A DNA stretch of 64,000 nt from Meiothermus sp. (GTDB lineage: Bacteria; Deinococcota; Deinococci; Deinococcales; Thermaceae). A model generated the notes under the pieces. It saw only the letters and a list, made by a program, of their open reading frames with translations, did no database searches and had not been told where the DNA came from. This document shows, one piece after another, positions 45,608 through 60,577 of this stretch (positions are counted from its first letter, which is position 1; every line of letters starts with the position of its first letter). Location of the stretch: the NCBI RefSeq assembly GCF_026004055.1, contig NZ_BPIJ01000001.1:62001-126000 (forward strand). Direction: 5' to 3'. Position numbers and translations under genes: made by a program.

Positions 45608-48598
45608 TCACTCCATCGTCATTGCCAGTCGGGTTCGGAGGGCTTGCTCGCTGACGCATTGAAGACGGGGCCGGCTTTCGTGCAGGGTAAGGGCCTGCTC
45701 GAGGTCGGCCCGGGCATTCTTGAATGCACCCAAAGCCAGCCAGGCTCCGCCCCGGCTGTACAGCGCGTTGATCTGCTGGGCTTCGGTCTGAGCAGCCTCC
45801 AGGGCTTGCTGGGCCAGGCGCAGGGCGGCCTTGGGGTTTTGTTGCCTAAGCTCGAGCTCGGCGTAAAGCTGCCGTACTTCGGCCCCGCCCCAGTGCAGCG
45901 CCTCCGAAAGCGCCAAAGCCCGCTCGAGGTCGGCGGTGGCCTGGGCAGTCTGGCCCTGCCCCAGCCAGGCCTGGGCCCGCACCAAGAGGGCCGCCAGCTC
46001 CTGGCGCTGCACCCCGGCCTGGCGGGATTTTTCTACCAGGGCCTCCACCTGCGCTGCTGCCTCGTCGAACCGCCCCAGGCTGTTAAGCACCCGGGCCCGC
46101 GCCCCTCCAACGCGCTCTTGCAGAAGCCAGAAACTCGAGGGTGCCGGGCTGTGCCGTTGCATCTGGGCTTCGGCCTGCGCGACATGGGCCAGCGCCGTCT
46201 CCGGCTGGCCAGAGAGCATCAGGGTCAGGCTGTGGCAAAGCAGGGCCTCGATTTGGTGGTAGGGGGTGAGGCTTTGGGCCAGCTGGAGCGCCTCCAGCCC
46301 GCCCTGATGGGCCTCCTCCAGCAACCCTAGGTCGCGCTGGTAGTGGGTCACAAAGACCAGCGGATAGAAGGCCTCGGCCGCGGAGACCTGCAGCGCGTAC
46401 CGGTAGGCCTGGCGGCTGGCCTCCAGGGCGCCTGTCAGGTCGTGCCGATCGTCGAGAGCCATGCTGCGAAAAAACCAGACCTGGGCCTGCTCGAGGGCGG
46501 TCTGGGCCATTTGCTGCAGACCCTCGAGTTGCTCGAGCTGGGCCTCGGGGCTGCAGAGGCCCACCTGGCGGCCCAGGTAGAAGCGCCGGGAGGCGGCCTC
46601 GAAGCGCCGGGGATGCCCTGAGGGCATGGCTTCCAGAGCTTGCCGGTAGTACCCGTCGGCCTCGCAGAAGGCCCGTAGGTCGTGGGCCTGCTGAGCAGCC
46701 TGAAGCCACCAGCCCACGGCTTCCTGGGGCTGTCCTGCAGCCTCGAAGTAGCCTGCCACCCGGGCCGGATGGGCGCCCCGTCCGGCGTAGTGCCGGGCCA
46801 AGCGGGCCGAGATGAGCCGGCGGCGGTCGGGCCCCAGGGCCTCGGCGATGGTGCGGGCCATTAGGTCGTGGCTAAAGCGGTAGCCCTCCGGGGCCGGGTC
46901 AATCAGCCGGGCTCGCCGGGCCTGTTCCAGCGCCTCGGAGACCTCCCAGTCCGAAAGCGCGGTGGCCTCGGACAGGAGGGTGCAGTCAAAGCTGCCGTCG
47001 GCGACCAGGGCGGCCACCTCCAGGCAGCGCCCTACTGCCGCACCCTGGCGTTCTAGGCGCCTCAGGATGGTTTGGCGCACGCTGGGCGCGATGGGCAGTT
47101 CGGCGTAGTCGTGGGTGGTTTCGTCGTAGGGGGTCTCCCAGATGTCGCCCTCGCCCAGGCGCAAAGCTCCCGACTCGAACAGGCCGCGCAGGGTCTCTAC
47201 CACAAACAACGGGTTACCCCCCGTGGCCTGGTAGAGCCGCCGGGGAAAAAGCTGTGCGGGTCGCCCCGAGAGCCGGGCCACCAACTCGGCCACCTGGGGC
47301 TCGTTGAGGGGCTCGAGCTCGAGCCAGAGTGCCGCCTGGCTTTGGCGCCAGTCCTGGTAGCGCTGGGCTACCTCGGGTGCTAGCTCGTCGGGCCGGAAGG
47401 TGGCGATGAGCCGGGCGCCTCCCAAACCCGCCGCCAGGGCCCGCAGGCTCCAGGGGTCGCTGTAATGTGCGTCTTCGCTTAGAAATACCGGGCTGCCGGC
47501 CAGGGTCAACAGCTCCCGCAGCGCAGCAAAAAACCGCATCTGCCCGGCCTCGTCCAGGGGTGGCGGGGGGGTGTCCGAAAGCCCGGGAACCAGCCGGGAG
47601 GCCTCGAGGCGTACCCAGCTTTTGAGGCTTGCCTCCGGGTTCGTGTCCAGGGCCCGGTGCAGCCATCGGGTCATGGAGGCGTAGGGGGTGGGGCCGTCGC
47701 CTGGCTGCCCCTCGAGCACGGTGCAGGGCCCTTTGTCGGCCAGAAACGCCTGGGCCAGGCGGGTCTTGCCCACCCCGGCGGGCCCGGCGATGAGCAGGAT
47801 GCTCCCCGCCTGCCAGGCCACCTCGAGCTGCTCCAGGGCTGCCTCGCGCCCCACCAGCGGGGGGTAGAGGAAGGGGCCCTGGGAGGCTTTGGGCTGAACC
47901 TGGGGAGCCGCTTTGCGCCGGCGGATCTGCTCGGCTAAGGCCTGGGTTTCGGGCAGGGGCTCCAGGGCCAGTTCCTGCTGCAAAACCTCACAAAGCCGCC
48001 GATACTGGCCCAGCGCCGCCTCGGTCTGCCCTAGCGCCGCATAAAGCCGCATGGCCTCGCGGTGGAAGTGTTCTTGCAGCGGGTCGTGGCGGATAAGCTC
48101 GAGGTAGTGTTCCAGGGCTGCCGGGGTCTGCCCACTGGCCAGGAGCGCTCCCGCCCGGCCCTCTTGGGCCTTGGCCCAAAGCCGCCCCAGCCGCTCGCGC
48201 CACTCCTCCAGCCACAGGGCGAAGCCCTCTTCCCCCAGCTCAAAGCCCTCCAACAAGGTCCCTCGGTACAGGGCCAGGGCCGGGGGCCAGTCCTGTTTTT
48301 CTACCCGCTCCCTAAAAACCTGCACGTCCAGCCAAAAGTCTTCTAGTCCCAGCCGCTCACGCGCGGCCCGCAGATGGGGCCCGGCGGAGCTTTTGCCGAT
48401 CTGGTAGAGCACCTGCCTCAAGCTGTGGCGGGCCTCGGTCTCGGCCTGGCTCCCCCACAAAAGCCCCACCAGCCGGCTGCGGGGCTGGTCGCCCTCGAGG
48501 GCCAGATAGGCCAGCAGTGCCACCGCTTTGCGGGGTAGGGAAACTTCCTGCCCTTCACGGGTTATGCGTGGAAAGCCCAGGAGCTCAATTTGCAGCAT
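45608..48598 (-). CDS. SARP/BTAD-AAA-TPR transcriptional regulator
   Basis: 996 residues. N-terminal winged helix of OmpR type (about 1-90, MLQIELLGFPRITREGQEVS), bacterial transcriptional activation domain of helical repeats (about 95-240, ending CEVLQQELALEPLPET), a STAND/AAA ATPase (about 250-560) with Walker A AGPAGVGKTRLAQAF and the Walker B-like VFLSEDAHY, and a long C-terminal TPR region (about 620-990). This is the SARP-type activator layout, controlled by nucleotide and an unknown ligand. It heads the minus-strand block of small secreted proteins and probably controls it. ATG 48598 diverges from the purine transporter operon across 190 bp. Confidence 0.88.
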   Translation of the reverse strand: MLQIELLGFPRITREGQEVSLPRKAVALLAYLALEGDQPRSRLVGLLWGSQAETEARHSLRQVLYQIGKSSAGPHLRAARERLGLEDFWLDVQVFRERVEKQDWPPALALYRGTLLEGFELGEEGFALWLEEWRERLGRLWAKAQEGRAGALLASGQTPAALEHYLELIRHDPLQEHFHREAMRLYAALGQTEAALGQYRRLCEVLQQELALEPLPETQALAEQIRRRKAAPQVQPKASQGPFLYPPLVGREAALEQLEVAWQAGSILLIAGPAGVGKTRLAQAFLADKGPCTVLEGQPGDGPTPYASMTRWLHRALDTNPEASLKSWVRLEASRLVPGLSDTPPPPLDEAGQMRFFAALRELLTLAGSPVFLSEDAHYSDPWSLRALAAGLGGARLIATFRPDELAPEVAQRYQDWRQSQAALWLELEPLNEPQVAELVARLSGRPAQLFPRRLYQATGGNPLFVVETLRGLFESGALRLGEGDIWETPYDETTHDYAELPIAPSVRQTILRRLERQGAAVGRCLEVAALVADGSFDCTLLSEATALSDWEVSEALEQARRARLIDPAPEGYRFSHDLMARTIAEALGPDRRRLISARLARHYAGRGAHPARVAGYFEAAGQPQEAVGWWLQAAQQAHDLRAFCEADGYYRQALEAMPSGHPRRFEAASRRFYLGRQVGLCSPEAQLEQLEGLQQMAQTALEQAQVWFFRSMALDDRHDLTGALEASRQAYRYALQVSAAEAFYPLVFVTHYQRDLGLLEEAHQGGLEALQLAQSLTPYHQIEALLCHSLTLMLSGQPETALAHVAQAEAQMQRHSPAPSSFWLLQERVGGARARVLNSLGRFDEAAAQVEALVEKSRQAGVQRQELAALLVRAQAWLGQGQTAQATADLERALALSEALHWGGAEVRQLYAELELRQQNPKAALRLAQQALEAAQTEAQQINALYSRGGAWLALGAFKNARADLEQALTLHESRPRLQCVSEQALRTRLAMTME

Positions 48599-48773
48599 GG
48601 TGGGGGATTTTTGGGACTACGGAAGACAGGCTTGTAGGCTCGCCGAAACTGCTTGCCTCGAGGATAGCAAAGAGGTTGGGTTGCTCCGGTGATACAGTAC
48701 CTACGATTCGCCTTGGCGGCATCCCGGTAAAAGCCCCATCGCCTCGGACTCGTCCACATTCGAGCCTTTGCTT

Positions 48774-48779
48774 TATGAT
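48774..48779 (+). promoter_or_regulatory. -10 box of leaderless purine-transporter operon promoter
   Basis: TATGAT, then 7 nt, then ATG 48787. No ribosome binding site. It sits in the divergent region shared with the SARP regulator (48599-48773), which otherwise shows nothing I can name. Confidence 0.5.
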
Positions 48780-48786
48780 TCTCCCA

Positions 48787-50286
48787 ATGGGCGAGCCCCT
48801 ACTGCAGCTACGCAACATCACCAAGCGCTTCCCGGGGGTGCTTGCCAACGACAGGGTGAGCCTCGAGGTCTACCCCGGCGAGGTGCTGGCGTTGTTGGGC
48901 GAGAACGGGGCGGGCAAATCCACCCTGATCTCCATCCTATACGGTCTGTATCGTCCCGACGAAGGCGAGATTTTCATAGAAGGCCGCCCGGTCAAAATAG
49001 CATCGCCCATGGACGCCCTCAGGCTGGGCATCGGTCTGGTGCCCCAGCACCCAACGCTGGTAGGCCGCCACACGGTGGCCGAGAACCTGGCCTTAGGCAT
49101 CGGAACCCCCTGGCTGCCGGCCCGGCGCATCGTGCCCCTGATTGAGCGGATTGCGCAAGGGTACGGTCTACAGATAGACCCGCAGGCCCGCATCTACCAG
49201 CTCTCGCCCGGCGAAAAACAGCGGGTCGAGATTGTGCGGGCCCTTTTGCGGGGCGCCAAGGTGCTGATCCTCGATGAGCCGACCAGCGTGCTCACTCCGC
49301 AGGAGGCCGAGGCCTTGTTTGGGGTGATGCGCGGGCTGCGTGCGGCGGGCAAGTCACTCATCTTTATTTCCCACAAGCTCGAGGAGGTGCTCTCCATCGC
49401 CGACCGCTGTACGGTACTGCGCCGGGGGAAAGTAGTGGGCAGCCTGCTTACGTCCGAGGCCAGCAAAGCCAAACTGGCCGAGATGATGGTGGGGCGCAGC
49501 GTGAGCTTCGAGCGCAAGCGGGGTCTGCCCCAGATGGGCGAGCTGTTGCTCAATGTTCAGGACTTGCACGTTTCCTCTAACCGCAACCTGCCTGCCCTGC
49601 GGGGGGTCAGCTTTGAGCTTCGCTCCGGCGAGGTGCTCGGCATCGCGGGCGTGGCCGGCAACGGTCAGAGCGAGCTGGTGGAGGTGCTGGCGGGTTTGCG
49701 AAAAAGCGAGGGGGGTACGGTGCGATTTGCCGGGCAGCCCCTGGTTGCCAACCCGGCGCAGCTCTTTGGGCAGGGGGTGGCCCACATTCCCGAAGACCGC
49801 ATCCACATGGGCACCGTACCCAGTATGAACGTGGCCGAGAACCTGGCCCTGCGCTCCTTTGACCGCCCCCCCTTTGCCCGGGGCCTTCTCCTAAACCCCG
49901 CGGCTATTGTGGCTTTTGCCGAGGCCAAAATTCGGGAGTATGCGGTCGCTACTCCCAGCCTGCACACCCCCTCGAGGCTCTTGTCGGGGGGCAATATCCA
50001 GAAGGTGATCCTGGCCCGCGAGCTGGCCGGACAATCCCGCTTGATCCTGGCCGTACACCCCACCTACGGCCTCGACATCGGGGCTACCGAGCAGGTGCAC
50101 CGGGTGCTGCTCGAGAAAACCTACCAGGGGGCCGCGGTGCTCCTGGTCTCGGAAGACCTGGAGGAGCTTTTTTCGCTCTGCGATCGAATTGGGGTGCTCT
50201 ACCACGGGCGGCTCCAGGGGCCTTTTGCCGTAGACCAGATCTCGCGCGAAGAAATTGGCCTGCGCATGACCGGAGGTGCCGCATGA
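48787..50286 (+). CDS. BMP-type nucleoside/purine ABC transporter, ATPase
   Basis: 499 residues, two fused ABC domains as in the sugar/nucleoside (NupO, BmpB, RbsA-like) class. Domain 1 has Walker A GENGAGKSTLISILYG, signature LSPGEKQRVEIVRAL and Walker B VLILDEPTSVL. Domain 2 has GVAGNGQSELVEVLAG and LLSGGNIQKVILAREL, typically degenerate. It powers uptake through the two permeases that follow. The leaderless box at 48774-48779 supports ATG 48787; an in-frame ATG at 48775 would lie inside it. The stop overlaps the start of permease 1 (ATGA). Confidence 0.92.
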   Translation: MGEPLLQLRNITKRFPGVLANDRVSLEVYPGEVLALLGENGAGKSTLISILYGLYRPDEGEIFIEGRPVKIASPMDALRLGIGLVPQHPTLVGRHTVAENLALGIGTPWLPARRIVPLIERIAQGYGLQIDPQARIYQLSPGEKQRVEIVRALLRGAKVLILDEPTSVLTPQEAEALFGVMRGLRAAGKSLIFISHKLEEVLSIADRCTVLRRGKVVGSLLTSEASKAKLAEMMVGRSVSFERKRGLPQMGELLLNVQDLHVSSNRNLPALRGVSFELRSGEVLGIAGVAGNGQSELVEVLAGLRKSEGGTVRFAGQPLVANPAQLFGQGVAHIPEDRIHMGTVPSMNVAENLALRSFDRPPFARGLLLNPAAIVAFAEAKIREYAVATPSLHTPSRLLSGGNIQKVILARELAGQSRLILAVHPTYGLDIGATEQVHRVLLEKTYQGAAVLLVSEDLEELFSLCDRIGVLYHGRLQGPFAVDQISREEIGLRMTGGAA

Positions 50287-51335
50287 AACTCGAGCCTTTG
50301 GGGCATGCCTCCCCCTGGCGGGCGCTGGGGGTCACCCTGTTGGCCTTGGGGCTGGCCTTTGGTCTGGTGGGGGTAGTGTTCTTGGCCTATGGACAGAACC
50401 CGCTCGAGGTCTACCGGGTGATGTTCTTTGGCACCTTGCTAGAGGCTAAGGGCTGGCAGGAAACCCTGCGCCGCAGCATTCCCCTGCTGCTGGTGGGGGT
50501 AGGTCTTACCCTGGCTTTCCGCACCCAGTTCTACAATATCGGGGCCGAGGGACAGCTTTTGCTGGGGGCGGTGATGGCCGCCGGGGTGGCCCTCTTTCTA
50601 CCGGTGCCCCCCGCCTTGAGCCTGCCGCTGATGGGGCTGGCCGGGGCTCTTGGGGGAGCGCTGTGGTGTGGCCTGGCGGCCTGGTTGCGGCTTCGCTTCA
50701 GCGTAAACGAAATCCTTTCCACCCTGATGCTCAACTATGTGGCCCAGTCGCTGGTCATCTACCTCATCAACGGCCCCTGGCGGGGCAAGGATGTGCGGGG
50801 CTACATCTACTCCGACCGCTTTGCCGAGTACCAGCAGCTGCCGGTATGGCCGGGCTCGAGCGTTCACTGGCCCACCCTGCTGCTGGGGGTGCTGCTGGCT
50901 TTGGTGCTCCAGTTTGTGCTCTTCCGCACCACCCTGGGCTTCCGCATGCGGGTGGTGGGGGAGAACCCCGGCGCTGCCCGCTATCTGGGTCTGGCCGAGG
51001 GCCGGGTGCTCTTGGGGCTGGCTTTGCTCACTGGGGGTATGGCCGGCCTGGCCGGGGTGGGGGAGATTGCCGGTATCCACCACCGCCTGATTGAGCCCGG
51101 TCAGCTCTCCTCCGGCTATGGCTTCACTGCCATCATCGTGGCCTGGCTGGCCCGGGGCCACCCGGCCCTGGTGCTGCTCACGGCCCCCTTGATGGGCCTC
51201 ATTCTGGCCGGAGGTGACTTGCTCAAGGTAAGCCTCAACATGCCCTTCCGCATTGTGGATGTGTTTAGCGGGGTCATCCTCTTCTGTCTGATCGGCTCAG
51301 AGCTTTTTTTGCGCTACCGTTTGCGCCTTAGGTGA
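50283..51335 (+). CDS. BMP-type ABC transporter permease 1
   Basis: 350 residues, about nine membrane helices, BPD_transp_2 family. Conserved segments: RSIPLLLVGVGLTLAFRTQFYNIGAEGQLLLG and LSSGYGFTAIIVAWLARGHP. Permeases of this class work with BMP-family binding proteins for nucleosides or purine bases. ATGA overlap with the ATPase gene and GTGA overlap with permease 2 show tight coupling. Confidence 0.92.
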   Translation: MKLEPLGHASPWRALGVTLLALGLAFGLVGVVFLAYGQNPLEVYRVMFFGTLLEAKGWQETLRRSIPLLLVGVGLTLAFRTQFYNIGAEGQLLLGAVMAAGVALFLPVPPALSLPLMGLAGALGGALWCGLAAWLRLRFSVNEILSTLMLNYVAQSLVIYLINGPWRGKDVRGYIYSDRFAEYQQLPVWPGSSVHWPTLLLGVLLALVLQFVLFRTTLGFRMRVVGENPGAARYLGLAEGRVLLGLALLTGGMAGLAGVGEIAGIHHRLIEPGQLSSGYGFTAIIVAWLARGHPALVLLTAPLMGLILAGGDLLKVSLNMPFRIVDVFSGVILFCLIGSELFLRYRLRLR

Positions 51336-52207
51336 GTATGGAAGAAGTCCTGAACGCGCTGGCTCGAGCCCTTTCCTTCGGCACCCCCCTGCTCATTGCC
51401 TGTTTGGGGGCCATCCTTAACGAGCGCGCCGGGGTGGTGAACCTGGGCGTGGAGGGCATGATGGCCCTGGGCGCCCTAGCCGGTTTTGCGGTGGCCTACG
51501 GCAGTGGGGGGGATGGCAACCTCTGGCTGGCGGTGCTGGCGGCCATGCTGGCCGGGGCGTTGGCTGCTTTGCTGCATGGCTTTGTAACCATTACCCTGCA
51601 GGCCAACCAGTTTGTCTCGGGCCTGGCCTTGACCATGGTGGGCCTGGGCACGGCGGGCCTACTGGGGAAGCGCTTTGAGGGGCTGCCCCTGTTCAACCAG
51701 CCCCCCGAGTGGCCCTTCACCCTGGGAGCCATCGGGCTGGCTTTGTTGCTGGCCCTGGTTTTCCAGGCCACCCACCTGGGCCTTTCGTTGCGCTCGGTGG
51801 GGGAAAACCCTGCTGCCGCCGACCTGCTGGGCATCCATGTACTGGCGGTGCGCTATGCGGCGGTGGCTGCTGGGGGTGCCCTGGCGGGGCTGGCGGGGGC
51901 CTATTTATCCTTGGTCTACCGCCCTTCCTGGACCGACGGCATGACCGCGGGGCTGGGCTGGATTGCGGTGGCGCTGGTGATTTTCGTGGGGTGGAGCCCG
52001 ATAAGGGCCGTGTTCGGTGCAGTGTTTTTTGGGTTGCTGTACTACTTACAGTTTCGGCTTCAAGGCCAGGTGGCCATTCCTTCAGAGGTGTTTGCGAGCC
52101 TGCCCTACCTTCTGGTTATACTTGTGCTGGCATTGTCAGGGCTGCGTGGGCAGCAGGGCAACGCCCCTGAGGCGCTGGGCAAACCATACCGACGGGGCGA
52201 GCGCTAA
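51332..52207 (+). CDS. BMP-type ABC transporter permease 2
   Basis: 291 residues, BPD_transp_2 family with the typical start TPLLIACLGAILNERAGVVN, then LGVEGMMALGALAG, and the later GMTAGLGWIAVALVIFVGW. It forms the heterodimeric membrane channel with permease 1. Either GTG 51332 (overlapping the previous stop) or ATG 51338 is the start; the difference is two residues. The binding protein follows after 63 bp. Confidence 0.92.
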   Translation: MSMEEVLNALARALSFGTPLLIACLGAILNERAGVVNLGVEGMMALGALAGFAVAYGSGGDGNLWLAVLAAMLAGALAALLHGFVTITLQANQFVSGLALTMVGLGTAGLLGKRFEGLPLFNQPPEWPFTLGAIGLALLLALVFQATHLGLSLRSVGENPAAADLLGIHVLAVRYAAVAAGGALAGLAGAYLSLVYRPSWTDGMTAGLGWIAVALVIFVGWSPIRAVFGAVFFGLLYYLQFRLQGQVAIPSEVFASLPYLLVILVLALSGLRGQQGNAPEALGKPYRRGER

Positions 52208-52270
52208 AGTGATGGCATCGGCCCGGTCGCTCCACAAGAGCATGTTGGGTAAGGCAGTAGGAGGGGTTGC

Positions 52271-53419
52271 ATGAAAAAGACTTGGTGGATCGGCATCTTA
52301 GCGGCTTTAGCTTTCAGTTTTGGCATGGCGCAGCAGGCCAATCTCAAGGCGTGTTTTATCTATGTGGGCCCGATTGGCGACGTGGGCTGGACCTTTGCCC
52401 ACGATGAAGCCCGCCGGGCCGCCGAGAAAGCCATTCCTGGCCTCACCACGCAGTATGTGGAGTCGGTCAAGCCCGCCGACACCCTGGCCACGGTAGACCG
52501 CCTGGTTGCGGGAGGGTGCAACGTGATCTTCACCACCTCCTTCGACTTTATGGATCCGACCCTCGAGGCCGCCAAGAAATACCCCGAGGTGATCTTCGCG
52601 CATGCCTCCGGCTTCAAGCGGGCTCCCAACATGCTCACCTACATGGCCGACTTCTATCAGATTTACTACCTGAACGGCCTGATGGCGGGCGCCCTGACCA
52701 AGAGCGGTAAGGTGGGCTACGTGGCAGCCTTCCCCATCCCAGAACTCAAGCGTCACATCTCGGCTTTTGCCCTAGGGGTGCGGGCGGTGAATCCGCGGGC
52801 GACCGTCAACGTCAAATGGATCAACGCCTGGTTCGATCCCGTCAAGGCCCGCGAGGCCGCCGAAGCCCTGATGGCCGAGGGCAACGACATCCTGGCCTTC
52901 ACCGAAGACACCGCTACGGTTGTCCAGACGGCAGCCCGCCGCAAGGTGCCCAGCTTTAGCCACTACAACTCGATGTACAAGTACGCCCCCGACTATGTGG
53001 TCTCGGGCCAACTAGTAGACTGGAGCGTAATCTACATCGACATCCTGAAAAAAGTGCAGAACGGCACCTACACCCCCAAAAACCTGCAGAATGTGGACTA
53101 CTGGTGGTTGGCCCGCGAAAAAGCGGTCATGCTCGGGGCCCAGGTGGGTATGCCCATCAACCCCAAGTTTGAACCCGCCCTCAAGCAGGCCACCATGGTG
53201 GTCAACGGCAAGCGGGTGAGCGTCTACGACCGGGTAATGGAGCTCTACAAGGACATCCAGAGCCCAAACCCCAAGTGGGATCCCTTCACCGGCCCCATCC
53301 GCGACCGCAACGGTGTGTTGCGCGTGCCCGCAGGGCGCAAGATGACCGTCAAGGAGCTCAACGAGATGCAGTGGGTAGCGCCGGGAGTGGTGGGCCCGGT
53401 GCCCGACGAGCCTAAATAA
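52271..53419 (+). CDS. BMP-family substrate-binding protein
   Basis: 382 residues: signal peptide MKKTWWIGILAALAFSFGMA followed by a BMP (PnrA-like) periplasmic binding fold, ACFIYVGPIGDVGWTFAHDE, SFDFMDPTLEAAKKYPEV, GLMAGALTKSGKVGYVAAF. BMP proteins bind nucleosides or purines; no lipobox Cys is seen, so this one is probably soluble in the periplasm, unlike many relatives that are lipoproteins. AGGAGGGG lies before ATG 52271. A strong terminator follows and closes the transporter operon. Confidence 0.92.
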   Translation: MKKTWWIGILAALAFSFGMAQQANLKACFIYVGPIGDVGWTFAHDEARRAAEKAIPGLTTQYVESVKPADTLATVDRLVAGGCNVIFTTSFDFMDPTLEAAKKYPEVIFAHASGFKRAPNMLTYMADFYQIYYLNGLMAGALTKSGKVGYVAAFPIPELKRHISAFALGVRAVNPRATVNVKWINAWFDPVKAREAAEALMAEGNDILAFTEDTATVVQTAARRKVPSFSHYNSMYKYAPDYVVSGQLVDWSVIYIDILKKVQNGTYTPKNLQNVDYWWLAREKAVMLGAQVGMPINPKFEPALKQATMVVNGKRVSVYDRVMELYKDIQSPNPKWDPFTGPIRDRNGVLRVPAGRKMTVKELNEMQWVAPGVVGPVPDEPK

Positions 53420-53435
53420 GCTAGGTTTTTGGATC

Positions 53436-53469
53436 GGGGGGCAGACTACAGGTCTGTCCCCCGTTTTTT
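53436..53469 (+). terminator. Rho-independent terminator after the transporter operon
   Basis: Stem GGGGGCAGAC (53437-53446), loop TACAG, GTCTG-T-CCCCC (53452-53462) with one bulged T, then GTTTTTT. It separates the transporter from the deaminase genes. Confidence 0.88.
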
Positions 53470-53542
53470 GCCGAACTTCACCGCCGAAAGCCCAAAGTCG
53501 AGGCTTGAACGCTGAATAGGAGCCTACCCGTGCAACCTCAGC

Positions 53543-53572
53543 TTGCGATGGCAGAGGGCTGCCCGTTAGGAT
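53543..53572 (+). promoter_or_regulatory. Promoter of the deaminase operon
   Basis: TTGCGA (53543-53548), 18-bp spacer, TAGGAT (53567-53572). ATG 53582 is 9 nt after the -10 box, so the leader is absent or 1-3 nt long. Confidence 0.55.
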
Positions 53573-53581
53573 GCACAGAAC

Positions 53582-55327
53582 ATGAGCATCACCCTATCCG
53601 ACCTCCAGTACGCAGTGGACGCAGCGATGGGCCGCCGGCCTGGAACCCTGCTTTTGAAAAACGCCCGGCTGCTCAACGTCTTCAGCCTGACCCTCCAGCC
53701 CACCCACATCCTGCTGGCGGGGCCCCTGGTGGCGGCGGTGGGCCTAGAGTACGCCGAGGCCGAGGCCCAGGAGGTTTTGGATTTGCAGGGCCGGGTGGTG
53801 GCCCCGGGGTTGATTGACGGGCATGTCCACCTCGAGAGCTCCTTGGTCACCCCCGCCGAGTACGCCCGGGGGGTGGTGCCCCGGGGCGTGACCGGGGTGG
53901 TGACCGACCCCCACGAGATTGCCAACGTGGCCGGGGTGGCGGGCGTGGAGTGGCTGGTGGAGGCCAGCGAAGGGCTGCCGCTGGAGGTCTGGGTCACGGT
54001 GCCCTCCTCGGTGCCCTCCACTCCGCTGGAGACCAGCGGCGCGGCGCTGGGCCTGGCGGAAATCGAGCGGCTGCTGGGCCACCCGCGGGTGGTGGGGGTG
54101 GCCGAGCTGATGAGCTTCCCGGCCATTCTGGCGGCCGAGGCGGGTGAGCTCGAGAAGGTGCGGCTGGCCGAGCGCTTCGGCAAGTCGCCCGAGGGCCACG
54201 CCCCCACCCTGACCGGCCGGCCCCTGCAAGGCTACCTGGCCACCGGCATCGCCTCCGACCACGAGAGCACCACCTTGGAGGAGGGGCGGGCCAAGCTCGA
54301 GGCGGGTTGCTTTCTGATGGTGCGCGAGGGCTCCACCACCCGCAACCTGGCGGCGTTGGCCCCCCTGCTCCGCCCCGAGCACGCCGACCGCATCGGTCTG
54401 GTGACGGACGACCGGCTGCCCTCGGACTTGCTGCAAGAAGGCGGGGTGGACTTCCTGGTGCGCAAGGCCATCGCCCTGGGGGTAGACCCGGCCTACGCGG
54501 TGCGGGCCGGGAGCTACAACGTGGCCCGGCACTTCGGCCTGCGGCGCCGGGGTGCGGTGGCCCCGGGTTTCCAGGCTGATTTGGTCGTCCTGGACGATTT
54601 GCAGAACTTTGTGGCGGCCCAGGTCTACCAGCGGGGCCGCTTGGTGGCCGAACAGGGACGCCTCCGGGTTGAACTGCCCAAAACCAAGCTCTCGGCGGCA
54701 GTGGCCCGTACCGTAAAACTGCCCGAGCTGCAACCCCACGACCTGCGGATTCCGGCCCAGGGAGGCCGGGTTCGGGTGGTGCGGGCCATCCCCCACCAGG
54801 TGCTCACCGCCGAGGAGCGCCTCGAGCCCACCGTTCGCGACGGCGAGGTGGTGGCCGACCCCACGCGGGATTTGGCCAAGCTGGTCTGCATAGAGCGCCA
54901 CGGCAAAAATGGGCGGATTGGCAAGGGGCTGGTCACGGCCTTTGGCCTGCAAAAAGGGGCCCTGGCCTGCACGGTGGGCCACGACCACCACAACCTGATG
55001 GCCGTGGGGGTCTCGGACGCCGATATCCTGTCCGCCGCCAGAAGGCTCGAGGCCCTGGGTGGGGGCATGATCGCGGTGGCCGACGGCCAGGTGCTGGCCG
55101 AGCTGGCCCTGCCCATCGCGGGCCTGATCACCGACGAGCCCCTGGAGGAGGTGGACGCCAAGCTCCAGGCCCTCGAGGCCGCCGCCCGGGGGCTGGGCGT
55201 CACCCTGCCCGACCCCTATATGGCCCTCTCCTTCCTCGGCCTGGCGGTCATCCCCGAGCTGCGCCTGACCGACCATGGGCTGGTGGATGTGCGGCAGGGG
55301 GCCTTGGTGGGGCTCTTTGTAGAATAG
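53582..55327 (+). CDS. ade: Adenine deaminase
   Basis: 581 residues, amidohydrolase family (Ade type). Metal and active-site blocks: VVAPGLIDGHVHLESSLV, GVTGVVTDPHEIANVAG, GIASDHESTTLEEG and LVTDDRLPSDLL, plus the C-terminal GHDHHNLMAVGVSDADIL, which is specific to adenine deaminase. It converts adenine to hypoxanthine and ammonia. It lies just after the purine transporter and 6 bp before guaD. Confidence 0.93.
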   Translation: MSITLSDLQYAVDAAMGRRPGTLLLKNARLLNVFSLTLQPTHILLAGPLVAAVGLEYAEAEAQEVLDLQGRVVAPGLIDGHVHLESSLVTPAEYARGVVPRGVTGVVTDPHEIANVAGVAGVEWLVEASEGLPLEVWVTVPSSVPSTPLETSGAALGLAEIERLLGHPRVVGVAELMSFPAILAAEAGELEKVRLAERFGKSPEGHAPTLTGRPLQGYLATGIASDHESTTLEEGRAKLEAGCFLMVREGSTTRNLAALAPLLRPEHADRIGLVTDDRLPSDLLQEGGVDFLVRKAIALGVDPAYAVRAGSYNVARHFGLRRRGAVAPGFQADLVVLDDLQNFVAAQVYQRGRLVAEQGRLRVELPKTKLSAAVARTVKLPELQPHDLRIPAQGGRVRVVRAIPHQVLTAEERLEPTVRDGEVVADPTRDLAKLVCIERHGKNGRIGKGLVTAFGLQKGALACTVGHDHHNLMAVGVSDADILSAARRLEALGGGMIAVADGQVLAELALPIAGLITDEPLEEVDAKLQALEAAARGLGVTLPDPYMALSFLGLAVIPELRLTDHGLVDVRQGALVGLFVE

Positions 55328-55333
55328 GTCGGC

Positions 55334-56623
55334 ATGATTATTCTGCGCGGCCTAATCGTTCACACCCCCAAGAACCCCTTCCGTGAGGCCGGCGCTTTGC
55401 AGGCCTTTTCCGATGGGGGTCTGGCCTTTCGGGAAGGTCGCATTCTCGCTTTGGGCAGCTTCGCCGAGGTGCGGGCCCAGTTTCCCAATGCAAGCGTGCA
55501 GGACTGCCGCGGGGGGGTCTTGCTGCCGGGGCTGGTGGACACCCACGTGCACTACCCCCAGACCCGGGTAATCGGGGCCATGGGCTACAGCCTGCTGGAC
55601 TGGCTGCAAAAGCGCACCCTGCCCTTAGAAGCCCGGCTTTCCGACAACAAGCTGGCCCGCGAGCTGGCCCGGGAGTTCGTAAAGCTCCTTCTGCGCAACG
55701 GCACCACCACTGCCTTGGTCTTCGGCTCGCACTTCCAAGGGGCCACCGCCAACCTCTTCGGGGCCGCCGAGGACGTGGGGCTCCGCGTCATCGCCGGGCA
55801 GGTGTGTTCGGATCGGCTCCTACTCCCCGCGCTCCACACCACCCCCGAGCGGAGCTACGCCGAGCAGAAGATGCTCATCCAGCGCTTTCATGGCCGGGGC
55901 AAGCTGCGCTACGCGGTCACCCCGCGCTTCGCGCTTTCGGCCTCGGAGGGGCTGCTCGAGGTCTGCCAGGCCCTATTGCAAGAGCACCCCGACCTGCACT
56001 TCACCACCCACCTCAACGAGAACCTCGAGGAAATCCGCACCGTGGCCGAGCTCTTCCCCTGGAGCGAGCACTACCTCCAGACCTACGACCGCTTTGGCCT
56101 GGTGGGGGAGCGCTCGGTCTTCGCCCACAACGTCCATCCCACCGAGGCCGAGCTGCTTCGCCTAGCCGAGGCCAGGGCCGCGGTGGCCCACTGCCCGAGC
56201 TCCAACGCCTTCATCGGCAGCGGCCTTTTTCCCATGCGACGGCACCTCTCGTATGGGGTGCGTTTCGCCCTGGGCTCCGATGTGGGAGGCGGCACCGGCT
56301 TCAGCCTGCTCAAGGAGGGGCTGATGGCCTACCTAACCCAACGCCACGCCCCGGACGGGGTGAACCTGACCCCGGCCCACCTGCTCTACCTGGCGACCCA
56401 GGCGGGCGCCGAAATTCTGGGCTTGGGCGAGGAGGTCGGTAGTTTTGTGCCGGGCAAGGCCGCCGATGTGGTCTGGGTCAGGCCGGAGCCGGGCAGCACC
56501 CTGGAGGTGCACTTCCGCCACCTGGACTCGGTGGAAGACCTCCTGGGCTCGCTTTTTACCCTGCACGGCGAGGCCAAGGTGCAAAAGGTCTGGCTGGACG
56601 GCCGGGAAGCGCCCCTGGATTGA
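55334..56623 (+). CDS. guaD: Guanine deaminase
   Basis: 429 residues, amidohydrolase fold. Motifs: LVDTHVHYPQTRVIGAMGYS (zinc HxH), TTHLNENLEEIRTV, VFAHNVHPTEAEL and ALGSDVGGGTGFSLL (metal Asp); CPSSNAFIGSG is typical of guanine deaminase. It produces xanthine and ammonia, the substrate for the xanthine dehydrogenase encoded upstream. It starts 6 bp after ade and is cotranscribed with it. Confidence 0.93.
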   Translation: MIILRGLIVHTPKNPFREAGALQAFSDGGLAFREGRILALGSFAEVRAQFPNASVQDCRGGVLLPGLVDTHVHYPQTRVIGAMGYSLLDWLQKRTLPLEARLSDNKLARELAREFVKLLLRNGTTTALVFGSHFQGATANLFGAAEDVGLRVIAGQVCSDRLLLPALHTTPERSYAEQKMLIQRFHGRGKLRYAVTPRFALSASEGLLEVCQALLQEHPDLHFTTHLNENLEEIRTVAELFPWSEHYLQTYDRFGLVGERSVFAHNVHPTEAELLRLAEARAAVAHCPSSNAFIGSGLFPMRRHLSYGVRFALGSDVGGGTGFSLLKEGLMAYLTQRHAPDGVNLTPAHLLYLATQAGAEILGLGEEVGSFVPGKAADVVWVRPEPGSTLEVHFRHLDSVEDLLGSLFTLHGEAKVQKVWLDGREAPLD

Positions 56624-56639: not shown

Positions 56640-57221
56640 ATGGAACAGGTCTACGTGCTCCCCGCCTCGGCTTTTCCGCCCGCGCAGGCAAAGCTGATGC
56701 CCCTCGAGCCCGACCTGCTCAAAAAAATGCAGCTCGAGGGCTTCTTCCTGGAGCGCGCCCAGGCCGAAGAAGACCCCACCCATAGGCAGATCATCCCCTA
56801 TGCGCTGGTGCGCCACAGGGGCCGCTACTTGCTGATGCGGCGCACCAAGGGAGGGGGCGAGGCCCGGCTGCACAACCTCTACACCCTGGGGGTGGGGGGG
56901 CATATCAACCCCGAAGACCAGAGGGTCAATCCCTTGCTGGACGGCCTGCGCCGCGAGCTGCTGGAAGAGGTGGGGGTGGGGCGCTACACCGCCGAGCCGG
57001 TGGGCCTGATCGTGATGTCCGATACGCCGGTGAGCCGGGTGCACGCCGGGGTGGTGTTCGTGGTGGACGCCGAGGACGAACCCCGGGTGGTGGAGGCCGA
57101 AAAGCTGGAGGGCCGGCTGGCCAGCCTGGAGGAGGTTTGTGCGGTCTACGAGCGGCTCGAGGGCTGGTCGCAGGTGGTGGTGGACTGGCTTAGGGTTCAG
57201 AGGTGGGAGGCTAAACTTTGA
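56640..57221 (+). CDS. Nudix-fold hydrolase
   Basis: 193 residues. A Nudix box is seen around GGHINPEDQRV with LLDGLRRELLEEVGVG (REL-x-EE-x-G metal-binding core), with about 20 residues before it (GRYLLMRRTKGGGEARLHNL) and a C-terminal extension. The family (phosphoesterase-like Nudix proteins) hydrolyses nucleoside diphosphate derivatives; substrate unknown. ATG 56640 follows a leaderless -10 box; the frame upstream is antisense-like read-through of guaD. The stop overlaps the TTG start of the next gene (TTGA). Confidence 0.85.
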   Translation: MEQVYVLPASAFPPAQAKLMPLEPDLLKKMQLEGFFLERAQAEEDPTHRQIIPYALVRHRGRYLLMRRTKGGGEARLHNLYTLGVGGHINPEDQRVNPLLDGLRRELLEEVGVGRYTAEPVGLIVMSDTPVSRVHAGVVFVVDAEDEPRVVEAEKLEGRLASLEEVCAVYERLEGWSQVVVDWLRVQRWEAKL

Positions 57222-57991
57222 CACCCATGCATATCGAGATGATTTCTTCTCCCGAGTCCACCGAAAGCTGGATTCGAGAGGGCGTATTGGGCGCCAAGGA
57301 GTCCGTTCTGGTAGCCGCACCCTATGTGGGAAAGATATTGCGCGATCTCTTGCTTATGCGTTCTCACAGCTTGCCCACCACGCTCATTACCAGCCTCCGG
57401 ATAGGCGATGTTTTAGGAGGAGCGTCCGACCTTCAGGCCATCTACGAACTTTCACAAAACCAGGTGCGGGTTCAGAGCATCAGCAGCCTTCACGCCAAGG
57501 TTTACATGGTTGACCGTAGCCGGGTGCTGATTACCTCGGCCAACCCGACCCAAAACGGCTGGCGATGGAACCTCGAGATCGGTCTGGCAGTGCAAAGCCG
57601 CCAGATTGCCCGGCAGGTTCTACAAACCCTGCGGGCAGCTAAACCCTACCCATGGATCTCGGCCCAACTCAGGCAGTATGCCGACTGGGCAGCGCGCCAG
57701 CCCAAAGTTTCGAGGCCTAGGATACTTCCCCTAGAGCGGGTGCACCTGGGTTTTGGGGGATGGTTGGGGCTGGTGATGCGGGCCGTGGCCCATCTGCCGG
57801 AGGAGTTTACCCTGGCAGAAGCCTACCAGAGCGCGTTGCCGCTGGCTGCAGAAGCATACCCGAACAATCACCATCCCAGAGACAAAATTCGCCAGCAGTT
57901 ACAGGGCTTGCGCGATCTGGGTTTGCTCGAGTTTGTGACACCGGGCCGTTACTGGCGGGTGAATGTAGACCTGGCGACTTTTCTGCGTTAG
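57218..57991 (+). CDS. PLD-fold protein with DpnI-like winged helix (putative nuclease)
   Basis: 257 residues. The N-terminal two thirds are a phospholipase-D/nuclease fold with one HKD motif, HAKVYMVDRSRVLITSANPT (His and Lys plus Asp in HxKx4D, then the Ser/Asn that closes the site), as in dimeric nucleases such as BfiI and Nuc. Residues about 175-257 form a winged helix (FTLAEAYQSALPLAAEAYP, then HHPRDKIRQQLQGLRDLGLL) closely resembling the C-terminal DNA-binding domain of DpnI and related restriction enzymes. A DNA endonuclease for restriction or repair is my inference. No methyltransferase gene is adjacent. TTG 57218 has GGAGG 8 nt upstream; ATG 57227 is the alternative. Confidence 0.75.
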   Translation: MTPMHIEMISSPESTESWIREGVLGAKESVLVAAPYVGKILRDLLLMRSHSLPTTLITSLRIGDVLGGASDLQAIYELSQNQVRVQSISSLHAKVYMVDRSRVLITSANPTQNGWRWNLEIGLAVQSRQIARQVLQTLRAAKPYPWISAQLRQYADWAARQPKVSRPRILPLERVHLGFGGWLGLVMRAVAHLPEEFTLAEAYQSALPLAAEAYPNNHHPRDKIRQQLQGLRDLGLLEFVTPGRYWRVNVDLATFLR

Positions 57992-58048
57992 CCTTTTTTT
58001 CGAAGTCCACCACCGGCAGTCAAATACTCGCCAGCCTTGCTTTTGCTT

Positions 58049-58144
58049 AGAGCGGCTCCCACGAATAGTCTTTACTGCGGTTTTTGCTGTAGGGACTACA
58101 ATACGAGCCACAGCGTGGATCGTATTAATGGGAACCGCGATAGG
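58049..58144 (+). repeat. 95-bp repeat, copy A
   Basis: Shares with 62356-62450 an unbroken block of 30 identical bases (58077-58111 region, GCGGTTTTTGCTGTAGGGAC and on) and similar flanks. Ends are inverted: AGCGGCTCCCACG on the left and, read backwards, ATCGCGGTTCCCA on the right. Inside is a hairpin around GCGGTTTTTGCTGT. It lies upstream of the beta-oxidation operon. The surrounding 57992-58285 holds no gene. Confidence 0.75.
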
Positions 58145-58192
58145 TGCCGCATTGCTTGGAGTCGCATATGCCTCGGTATCTTGAAGCAAGGC

Positions 58193-58220
58193 TAGACGGG
58201 CATCGCGGGTATGTTATAAA
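58193..58220 (+). promoter_or_regulatory. Possible promoter of the beta-oxidation operon
   Basis: TAGACG (58193-58198), 16-bp spacer, TATAAA (58215-58220); a second TATAAA is at 58232-58237. The leader ends with GGAGGAAACA before ATG 58286. Confidence 0.4.
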
Positions 58221-58285
58221 CTTTGACTCGGTATAAAAATAATCTGCTGGCAACCCGCGCGGATTGTGGGCCTCTGGAGGAAACA

Positions 58286-60577
58286 ATGCGAATCAAGAAG
58301 ATCGGTGTGGTGGGATCTGGAACGATGGGTGGAGCGATTGCTGCACTGGCTGCCTCGGCAGGGGTGCCGGTGGTCATGCTGGACATACCGGGGAGGGAGG
58401 ACAAGCTCGAGCTGGTCAAAAAAGGCCTGGAGCGACAGCTCAAGAGCAAGCCCGCGAGCTTTATGGACAAGGGCCGGGCGGCCCTCATCGAACTGGGCAC
58501 CACCGAGGAGCTGGAGAAGCTCAAGGACTGCGACTGGATTGTGGAGGTGATCATCGAGAAGCCTGAGCCCAAGCAGGAGCTTTTTGCCCGCTTGGAGGCT
58601 TTGGGCACCAGGGCCATCGTGAGCTCCAACACCTCCGGCATTCCCATGAAAACCCTCTTGGAGGGCCGGGGCGAGGCCTTCCGTAAGCGCTTCCTGGGCA
58701 CCCACTTCTTTGCCCCGGTGCGCTACTTGCACCTGCTGGAGCTCATTCCCACCCCCGAGACCGACCCGGCGGTGCTGGAGGCCATGCGCCGCTTTGGCGA
58801 GCGCATCCTGGGCAAGGGCACCGTAATCTGCAAGGACGCCCCTGGCTTCATCGCCAACCGACTGGGGGTCTACGGGATGTCCCAGGCCATGCGCCTGATG
58901 ATGGAGGAGGGCCTTACCATCGACGAGGTGGACGCCCTCACCGGCCCCCTGGTGGGCCGCCCCAAAAGCGCTACCTTTCGCACCGGCGACATCTCCGGCC
59001 TGGACGTGCTGAAGCTGGTCTCCACAGAGCTTTCCCAGACCACCGGTGAAAACTTCGCCATGCCCGAGTGGGTGGAAGGCCTCATCGCCCAGGGCCATCT
59101 AGGCGACAAGACCGGGGCCGGCTTCTACAAGAAGGTAGGCAAGGACATCTACACCTACGATTACCAGACCGGGGAGTACAAGCCCCAGCAGAAGCTGCGC
59201 CTGGACGAAATCGCCGCCATCAAAGACCTGCCCCTCGCCGAGCGGCTTAGAAGGGTGGGCGAGCTGCCCGGCAAGTACGGCGCCTTTGCCAAAAAACTCT
59301 TCCTCACCACCGCCCACTACACCCTGCAGAAGGCGGAGGAAATCGCCTACGACATCGTTTCCATAGACCGCGCGCTGGAGTGGGGCTTCGCCTGGGAGCA
59401 GGGGCCCTTCAAGAACATGGACGCGGTGGGCCTAGACTACCTCCGCCAGGGTTTTGCCGAGCTGGGCCTTCCCGAGCCCGAGCTATTGAAGAAGGCCCAG
59501 GGCGGCTTCTACAAGAATGGGACGTACCTCGGCTTTGACGGGCAGTACCACCCCATCCCCAAGGAGGAAGGGGTCATCCGGCTGGCCCAGGTGAAAAGCG
59601 AGGGCAAGACCCTCCTGGAGGGCAAGGAGTACGCCCTGCTCGACCTGGGCGATGGGGTAGCCCTCTTCGAGAACCGGGCCAAGATGGGCACCTGGGGCGA
59701 GGGCTCCATCTCGGGGCTGCACAAGGCCCTGGACTGGGTGGAGGCCCAGGGCTACGCCGGGCTGGTGCTGGGCGGCGAAGACCCCCGCACCTTTAGCGCC
59801 GGGGCCAACCTGGCCCTGGTGCTGATGGCCGCGCAAGAGGGGGCCTGGGACGACCTCGAGCTCGCCACCCGCCGCTTCCAGCAGACCTCCATGCGCCTGC
59901 GCCGCTCGCCTTTCCCGGTGGTGGCGGCCCCCTTTGGCCTTACCCTGGGCGGTGGAGCCGAATTCAGCCTGCACGCCAGCGCCATCCAGGCCCACGCCGA
60001 GCTCTACATGGGCCTGGTGGAGGTGGGGGTGGGCCTCCTGCCGGGTGGGGGCGGTACCAAGGAGATGCTCTTCCGCTTCACCCGCGAGCTCTCGGCCTAC
60101 GGCCCCGAAATAGACCTGTTTGAAGGGGTCAAGCGGGCCTTCCAGCTCATCATGTTGGCCCAAACCTCCACCAGCGCCCTCGAGGCCCGCAACATGGGCT
60201 TCTTGCGCCAGAGCGACGGCATCAGCATGAACCGCGACCGCCTGATCGCCGACGCCAAGCGTCGGGTGCTGTTCATGGCCCCCGACTTCGTGCCCGAGCC
60301 GCCCATGCGCGTCCGGGCTTTGGGCAACCAGGCCCTGGGCAACCTGCGCTACGCCCTGTGGCAGTTCCACGAGGCCCGCCAGGCCAGCGAACACGACGTG
60401 TTCATCGGCAACCAGGTGGCCTACGTGCTCTGCGGGGGCGACGGCCCGCCCCGCGAGGTGAGCGAGCAAGACATTTTGGACTTGGAACGCGAGGGCTTCC
60501 TTAAGCTCTTGGGCACCAAAAAGACCCAGGAGCGCATCGCCCACACCCTCAAGACCGGGAAGCCCCTGCGGAACTGA
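58286..60577 (+). CDS. 3-hydroxyacyl-CoA dehydrogenase / enoyl-CoA hydratase
   Basis: 763 residues, fused two-activity beta-oxidation enzyme. N-terminal NAD domain (about 3-185) with VVGSGTMGGAIAALAASAG, GTHFFAPVRYLHLLEL and the 3HCDH C-domain (GFIANRLGVYGMSQAMRLM); C-terminal crotonase domain (about 470-670) with FSAGANLALVLMAAQ, and both catalytic Glu present in LTLGGGAEFSLHAS and GLVEVGVGLLPGGGGTKEML. It hydrates enoyl-CoA and oxidises the 3-hydroxy product. Ribosome binding site GGAGG, 8 nt before ATG 58286. The DUF4442 and thiolase genes follow. Confidence 0.92.
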   Translation: MRIKKIGVVGSGTMGGAIAALAASAGVPVVMLDIPGREDKLELVKKGLERQLKSKPASFMDKGRAALIELGTTEELEKLKDCDWIVEVIIEKPEPKQELFARLEALGTRAIVSSNTSGIPMKTLLEGRGEAFRKRFLGTHFFAPVRYLHLLELIPTPETDPAVLEAMRRFGERILGKGTVICKDAPGFIANRLGVYGMSQAMRLMMEEGLTIDEVDALTGPLVGRPKSATFRTGDISGLDVLKLVSTELSQTTGENFAMPEWVEGLIAQGHLGDKTGAGFYKKVGKDIYTYDYQTGEYKPQQKLRLDEIAAIKDLPLAERLRRVGELPGKYGAFAKKLFLTTAHYTLQKAEEIAYDIVSIDRALEWGFAWEQGPFKNMDAVGLDYLRQGFAELGLPEPELLKKAQGGFYKNGTYLGFDGQYHPIPKEEGVIRLAQVKSEGKTLLEGKEYALLDLGDGVALFENRAKMGTWGEGSISGLHKALDWVEAQGYAGLVLGGEDPRTFSAGANLALVLMAAQEGAWDDLELATRRFQQTSMRLRRSPFPVVAAPFGLTLGGGAEFSLHASAIQAHAELYMGLVEVGVGLLPGGGGTKEMLFRFTRELSAYGPEIDLFEGVKRAFQLIMLAQTSTSALEARNMGFLRQSDGISMNRDRLIADAKRRVLFMAPDFVPEPPMRVRALGNQALGNLRYALWQFHEARQASEHDVFIGNQVAYVLCGGDGPPREVSEQDILDLEREGFLKLLGTKKTQERIAHTLKTGKPLRN

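Follow-up and report, generated by a model that had tools for sequence, protein, structure and literature searches.

The DNA analyzed here, referred to as the window, is a 64,000-nucleotide stretch of a Meiothermus genome (G000), and the gene of interest lies on its forward strand at positions 57218 to 57991. This gene encodes a putative endonuclease, abbreviated PLD-wH, in which a PLD nuclease domain is followed by a winged helix of the DpnI type. The product is 257 amino acids long when read from a TTG at 57218 and 254 amino acids long when read from an ATG at 57227. On the left, a NUDIX hydrolase gene (56640 to 57221, forward strand) is also present in genomes without PLD-wH. On the right, the gene for a 3-hydroxyacyl-CoA dehydrogenase/enoyl-CoA hydratase (HADH; 58286 to 60577, forward strand) occurs as one copy per genome, in conserved synteny across the genus. 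The interval from the NUDIX stop to the conserved HADH promoter (57222 to 58210) is variable and is termed slot 1. The promoter itself (58211 to 58242) contains a conserved element, TTATAAACTTTGACTCGGTATAAAAATA, which precedes HADH in almost every Meiothermus genome read and may be an operator of a regulon for fatty-acid degradation. Positions 48517 to 56620 hold a nucleoside/purine uptake and salvage cluster. It comprises an ABC ATPase, a pair of permeases, a lipoprotein of the BMP type and two proteins that are widely conserved in the genus, one adenine-deaminase-like and the other an amidohydrolase.

The TTG start of the PLD-wH gene overlaps the NUDIX stop and has a GGAGG 7 bases upstream. 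The in-frame ATG, 9 bases past the TTG, aligns with the start of the orthologue in G040 and, judging from this alignment, may be the true start. Full-length orthologues with 76% (G040) and 58% (G032) identity indicate that the gene in the window is real. Both domains were recovered by Pfam above the curated cut-offs: the PLD nuclease domain (PLDc_2, PF13091; amino acids 26 to 137, positions 57293 to 57628) with E=2.3e-13 and the winged helix (DpnI_C, PF17726; amino acids 181 to 245, positions 57758 to 57952), a predicted m6A reader, with E=1.3e-17. The HKD motif HAKVYMVD (57491 to 57514) is complete (H92-x-K94-x4-D99, followed by S107-A-N109, N118 and E120) and invariant in four full-length PLD-wH proteins; an earlier sequence-only reading had proposed an HKD-type active site. 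The winged helix contains a conserved motif, YPNNHHPRDKIRQQLQ, at 57857 to 57904, and YPNNHHPRDKIRQQLQGLRDLGLLEF of PLD-wH aligns with VKNNHIKEKIRQQLQILRDKEIIEF of DpnI. K223 and R225 within this motif correspond to K229 and R231 of DpnI (numbered by counting along the alignment, with three extra residues allowed at the chain start), and the pair is invariant in the aligned PLD-wH and DpnI relatives. Alanine variants of these two DpnI residues impair the enzyme (PMC4117772).

Searched against solved structures, a profile built from four PLD-wH orthologues matched DpnI (6e-9) and gave weak matches to Nuc, NucT, PLD3 and BfiI (2c1l, E=1.1). An AlphaFold2 model built from 18 alignment rows reached a pLDDT of 87.5 and a pTM of 0.75, while a model from 3 rows was poor (pLDDT 48.5). 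The top PDB match of the better model in Foldseek was Salmonella Nuc (1BYR; TM 0.81 when scaled to the target). NucT came next, SauUSI and DpnI (4kyw, E=1.2e-6) stood lower down, and BfiI was absent among the 50 matches listed. Members of the PLD family such as Nuc carry one HKD motif per chain, and a second chain must complete the active site. The single HKD motif per PLD-wH chain implies that its active site would have to be completed in the same manner. Pfam and the structural comparison thus agree with the sequence-only reading on a PLD fold joined to a DpnI-like winged helix. Its assignment of the protein to the BfiI/NgoFVII type held in part. Those metal-independent restriction enzymes share the layout of an N-terminal PLD nuclease and a C-terminal DNA-binding domain, but the PLD fold of PLD-wH is nearest to Nuc and NucT and its similarity to BfiI is weak. 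BfiI has a B3-like domain, recognizes unmodified DNA and has cognate methylases.

Since DrmC profiles pick up the PLD part and the gene begins within the end of the NUDIX gene, PLD-wH might supply the nuclease of a defence system made up of several genes, resembling DrmC of DISARM, or be a partner of the NUDIX hydrolase. However, the DrmC match (52 bits against a cut-off of 133) spans the HKD stretch only, and no other DISARM gene was found among the ORFs around PLD-wH; identity with DrmC was rejected on these grounds. Furthermore, relatives keep the NUDIX gene without PLD-wH, for which a partnership with it was rejected as well, and the PLD-wH copy of G036 has other neighbours. An explanation of this kind appears highly improbable.

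In a set of 111 genomes from the phylum, the complete PLD-wH architecture was found only in the genus of the window, in 4 of 18 Meiothermus genomes. The holders are G000, G040, G032, whose locus is the same as that of Meiothermus rufus DSM 22234 recovered by a profile search of genome contigs, and G036, whose copy is divided between two contig ends, the gap between them taking out the HKD part. In the genome-contig scan, a single protein query returned no match and an alignment query returned M. rufus and one Brocadiia MAG. This MAG, from beyond the phylum, encodes a full-length relative with 33% identity, the sole one found among the 392 genomes that were sampled for its phylum. Searches of phages, plasmids and viral contigs gave no full-length match, and a phage or plasmid origin was rejected for this reason.

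This distribution bears on the possibility that PLD-wH is a non-specific nuclease of the Nuc/NucT type or a DNA-processing enzyme acting in repair or competence, its winged helix serving for general DNA binding. Nuc of Salmonella and NucT of H. pylori, the top fold matches, share with PLD-wH the single-HKD PLD fold and the expected homodimer. NucT acts in transformation in H. pylori, and Thermaceae are often naturally transformable. On the other hand, neither Nuc nor NucT has a winged helix, both are exported or located at the cell surface, and a soluble cytoplasmic nuclease lacking specificity would be toxic. PLD-wH occurs sporadically in the genus and nowhere else in the phylum sampled, its winged helix belongs to the DpnI m6A-reader family, and a housekeeping nuclease would not be expected to alternate with a Dam methylase, as described below for PLD-wH. 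Such a role is therefore considered very doubtful.

The surroundings of PLD-wH were compared in 18 Meiothermus genomes at two separate, unlinked chromosomal slots. Slot 1 holds PLD-wH in three of them (G000, the G040 chromosome and G032). The same interval is occupied in G027, G029, G031 and G038 by a Dam-type D12 methylase together with a 138-amino acid PD-(D/E)XK protein (PDDEXK_11), in G033, G035 and G036 by riboflavin synthase, and in G041 and G042 by almost nothing. Riboflavin synthase in several genomes indicates that other cargo can also occupy slot 1. Slot 2, between ispH and dusA, holds PLD-wH in G036 only and a Dam methylase with a PDDEXK_11 nuclease in G033 and G035. The slot 2 Dam gene is interrupted, truncated or cut by a contig end in G030, G041 and G042, and the slot is empty in the remaining 12 of 18 genomes; no cargo other than Dam or PLD-wH was seen there in the 18 genomes. 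The partner nucleases belong to PDDEXK_11 at both slots, and at both the orientation of PLD-wH is opposite to that of the Dam cassette. It is very unlikely that both PLD-wH slots would coincide with Dam slots by chance, unless the slots are general insertion hot spots. In slot 2 of G042 and G030 (L075, L086), the frame of the partner nuclease is still open beside the interrupted or truncated Dam gene; unless it is inactive, a PDDEXK_11 nuclease that has lost its methylase should be detrimental to the cell.

No methyltransferase was found in the PLD-wH flanks of G000, G040, G032, G036 and L122. The sequence-only reading had remarked that no methyltransferase is nearby and had guessed from this that the enzyme acts on modified DNA. 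The remark is accurate within the window, but it does not extend to sister genomes, in which a Dam-type methyltransferase sits in the same slot, as the survey of gene neighbours at the two loci revealed. The guess itself is now well supported.

All four slot-mate methylases tested matched TIGR00571 'dam', and two tested against solved structures were nearest to DpnM (2DPM, E~1e-32) and then to EcoDam. Intact copies retain the segment NGLCRFN...GxFNVPFG, which is common to the GATC enzymes DpnM and EcoDam. At a third cassette site (L035 1396-2899, G034:C225), a Dam gene is paired with a MutH-like nuclease. The nearest structures, the retained segment and the MutH-like partner in G034 suggest that GATC is the likely target of the Meiothermus Dam-type methylases. 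The D12 genes in G000, G032 and G036 belong to types other than Dam. A conserved D12-like protein of about 365 amino acids (GSKRALLPWI...DPPYNQHSYLGN; L042, L055, L057, L060; G000:C1:1652653-1653411 and counterparts) occurs in most Meiothermus, every PLD-wH holder among them, and is probably not a GATC methylase. Self-conflict in G000 was rejected since its D12 proteins are of another type and its PF01555 matches have no assignable target. It was likewise rejected for the Brocadiia MAG, whose single D12 protein lacks the Dam motif.

Dam-type genes were absent from the chromosomes of all four PLD-wH holders and present, remnants included, in 10 of the 14 other genomes (Fisher p=0.023). With nine instead of ten Dam genomes p rose to 0.08, and with G040 counted as a Dam holder it was 0.25; significance is lost on dropping the broken copies as well as on counting G040 as a Dam holder (p=0.08-0.25). 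On an ispH tree of the 18 genomes, the states PLD-wH, Dam and none require at least 8 changes, and G040 (PLD-wH) and G029 (Dam) are sisters. The G040 assembly also includes a separate 35.5 kb contig, C3 (L068, L117, L118), in which slot 1 is occupied by an intact Dam cassette, methylase plus nuclease, where the chromosome has PLD-wH. Because C3 is collinear with the 128.6-171 kb region of the G040 chromosome at 79-99% identity, it was taken as the likely haplotype of a second strain in the sample; if its Dam cassette shared a cell with the PLD-wH of G040, the two would conflict. Identity between C3 and the chromosome is 95-99% beside the slot, as recombination around the slot would leave. GATC is under-represented in the window (135 found versus 209 expected from trinucleotides; observed/expected about 0.65), and the ratio is about 0.67 on a Dam-bearing contig and similar in relatives with and without Dam. 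Depletion of GATC as a trace of restriction was rejected because holders and non-holders show a similar ratio.

The borderline Fisher test would also fit a PLD-wH nuclease directed against another modified sequence, either m6AT in a different context or a non-m6A mark, with slots that are merely permissive and an exclusion that is due to chance. The riboflavin synthase in slot 1 of several genomes points in the same direction. Furthermore, a recent survey reports that the full GATC/m6A motif is present in only about 10% of wH fusions, which leaves some 90% without a strict one (PMC11037411). However, the winged-helix motif of PLD-wH is very close to that of DpnI, and PLD-wH shares two unlinked slots with Dam, one of which accommodates only Dam or PLD-wH in 18 genomes. 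A target other than GATC is accordingly regarded as unlikely, though it is the least improbable of the alternatives.

The reading that we favor, and consider quite probable, is that PLD-wH is a stand-alone type IV restriction endonuclease directed against Gm6ATC-methylated DNA and exchanged against a Dam system. The genomes and the model provide both domains, intact motifs, the predicted fold, the sharing of slots at two loci and the absence of Dam from the chromosomes of the holders; the strongest clue to the target is the Dam methyltransferase in the same slot of sister genomes. The predicted mechanism would involve several steps. First, the C-terminal DpnI-type winged helix would bind duplex DNA at Gm6ATC methylated on both strands, or at a closely similar S-m6AT-S site. 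Second, the N-terminal Nuc-like PLD domain would dimerize, bringing two HKD motifs together in a single active site that needs no metal, and the dimer would cut close to the bound site by way of a covalent intermediate on histidine. Third, the enzyme would restrict incoming phage, plasmid or transforming DNA from Dam-methylating cells, and it would be tolerable only in a cell without GATC methylation. The alternating partner at the slots, a DpnM-like Dam methylase with a PD-(D/E)XK nuclease, would restrict unmethylated GATC. Since a cell with PLD-wH could not tolerate Dam, the two systems would be expected to alternate, presumably by exchange at the slots.

The architecture itself is already known, and what is new here is its genomic setting. 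PLD-wH fusions were reported in 2024 by Helbrecht et al., who described 27 proteins predicted to be m6A-dependent type IV enzymes and cloned and tested two of them, Aba4572I and CbaI, in E. coli (PMC11037411). The sequence-only reading was therefore mistaken in calling the protein undescribed. CbaI was toxic to Dam+ but not to Dam- E. coli, while Aba4572I was toxic in Dam- cells too, a pattern that is unexplained; neither could be purified (PMC11037411). No member of the class is known to have been purified or to cleave DNA in vitro. Aba4572I and CbaI have the same two domains in the same order, stand alone and carry a DpnI-type winged helix. Unlike the Meiothermus protein, which alternates with a Dam-type restriction-modification cassette at the same slots, they come from Chloroflexi/Anaerolineaceae, and one lies beside a CGATCG methyltransferase.

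Compared to the pneumococcal dpnI/dpnII locus, whose logic is known with a DpnI-type enzyme (PMC3573125, PMC4263131), the Meiothermus slots show a homologous winged helix and a predicted methyl-directed enzyme that alternates at one locus with a DpnM-type Dam restriction-modification system. They differ in that the catalytic domain is PLD rather than PD-(D/E)XK, so that the second m6A pocket of DpnI would be absent, and in that two slots are involved instead of one. No DpnA-like methylase was seen adjoining the PLD-wH gene, unlike at the dpnI/dpnII locus. Similarly, the Neisseria 'dam replacing gene' drg (NmeBII) encodes a DpnI-type enzyme (PMC4269198), and in both cases a winged-helix enzyme against Gm6ATC, with cleavage in drg and by prediction here, replaces dam at one locus. 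A PLD enzyme in a dam-replacing role was not found in the open-access literature searched.

PLD-wH is the only published class of wH fusion endonucleases that lacks a member both purified and active. The Meiothermus proteins are of thermophilic origin and might purify more easily, and the natural counterpart Dam at the same locus makes their predicted target directly testable. For the genus, we lean toward the view that Meiothermus has assembled an epigenetic switch like DpnI/DpnII from unrelated parts, with two slots, repeated replacement and mutually restricting populations, and that this would represent a third 'dam-replacing' origin with a new catalytic fold. If this is true, loci at which methyl-directed restriction alternates with Dam methylation would have evolved repeatedly, with different nuclease folds.
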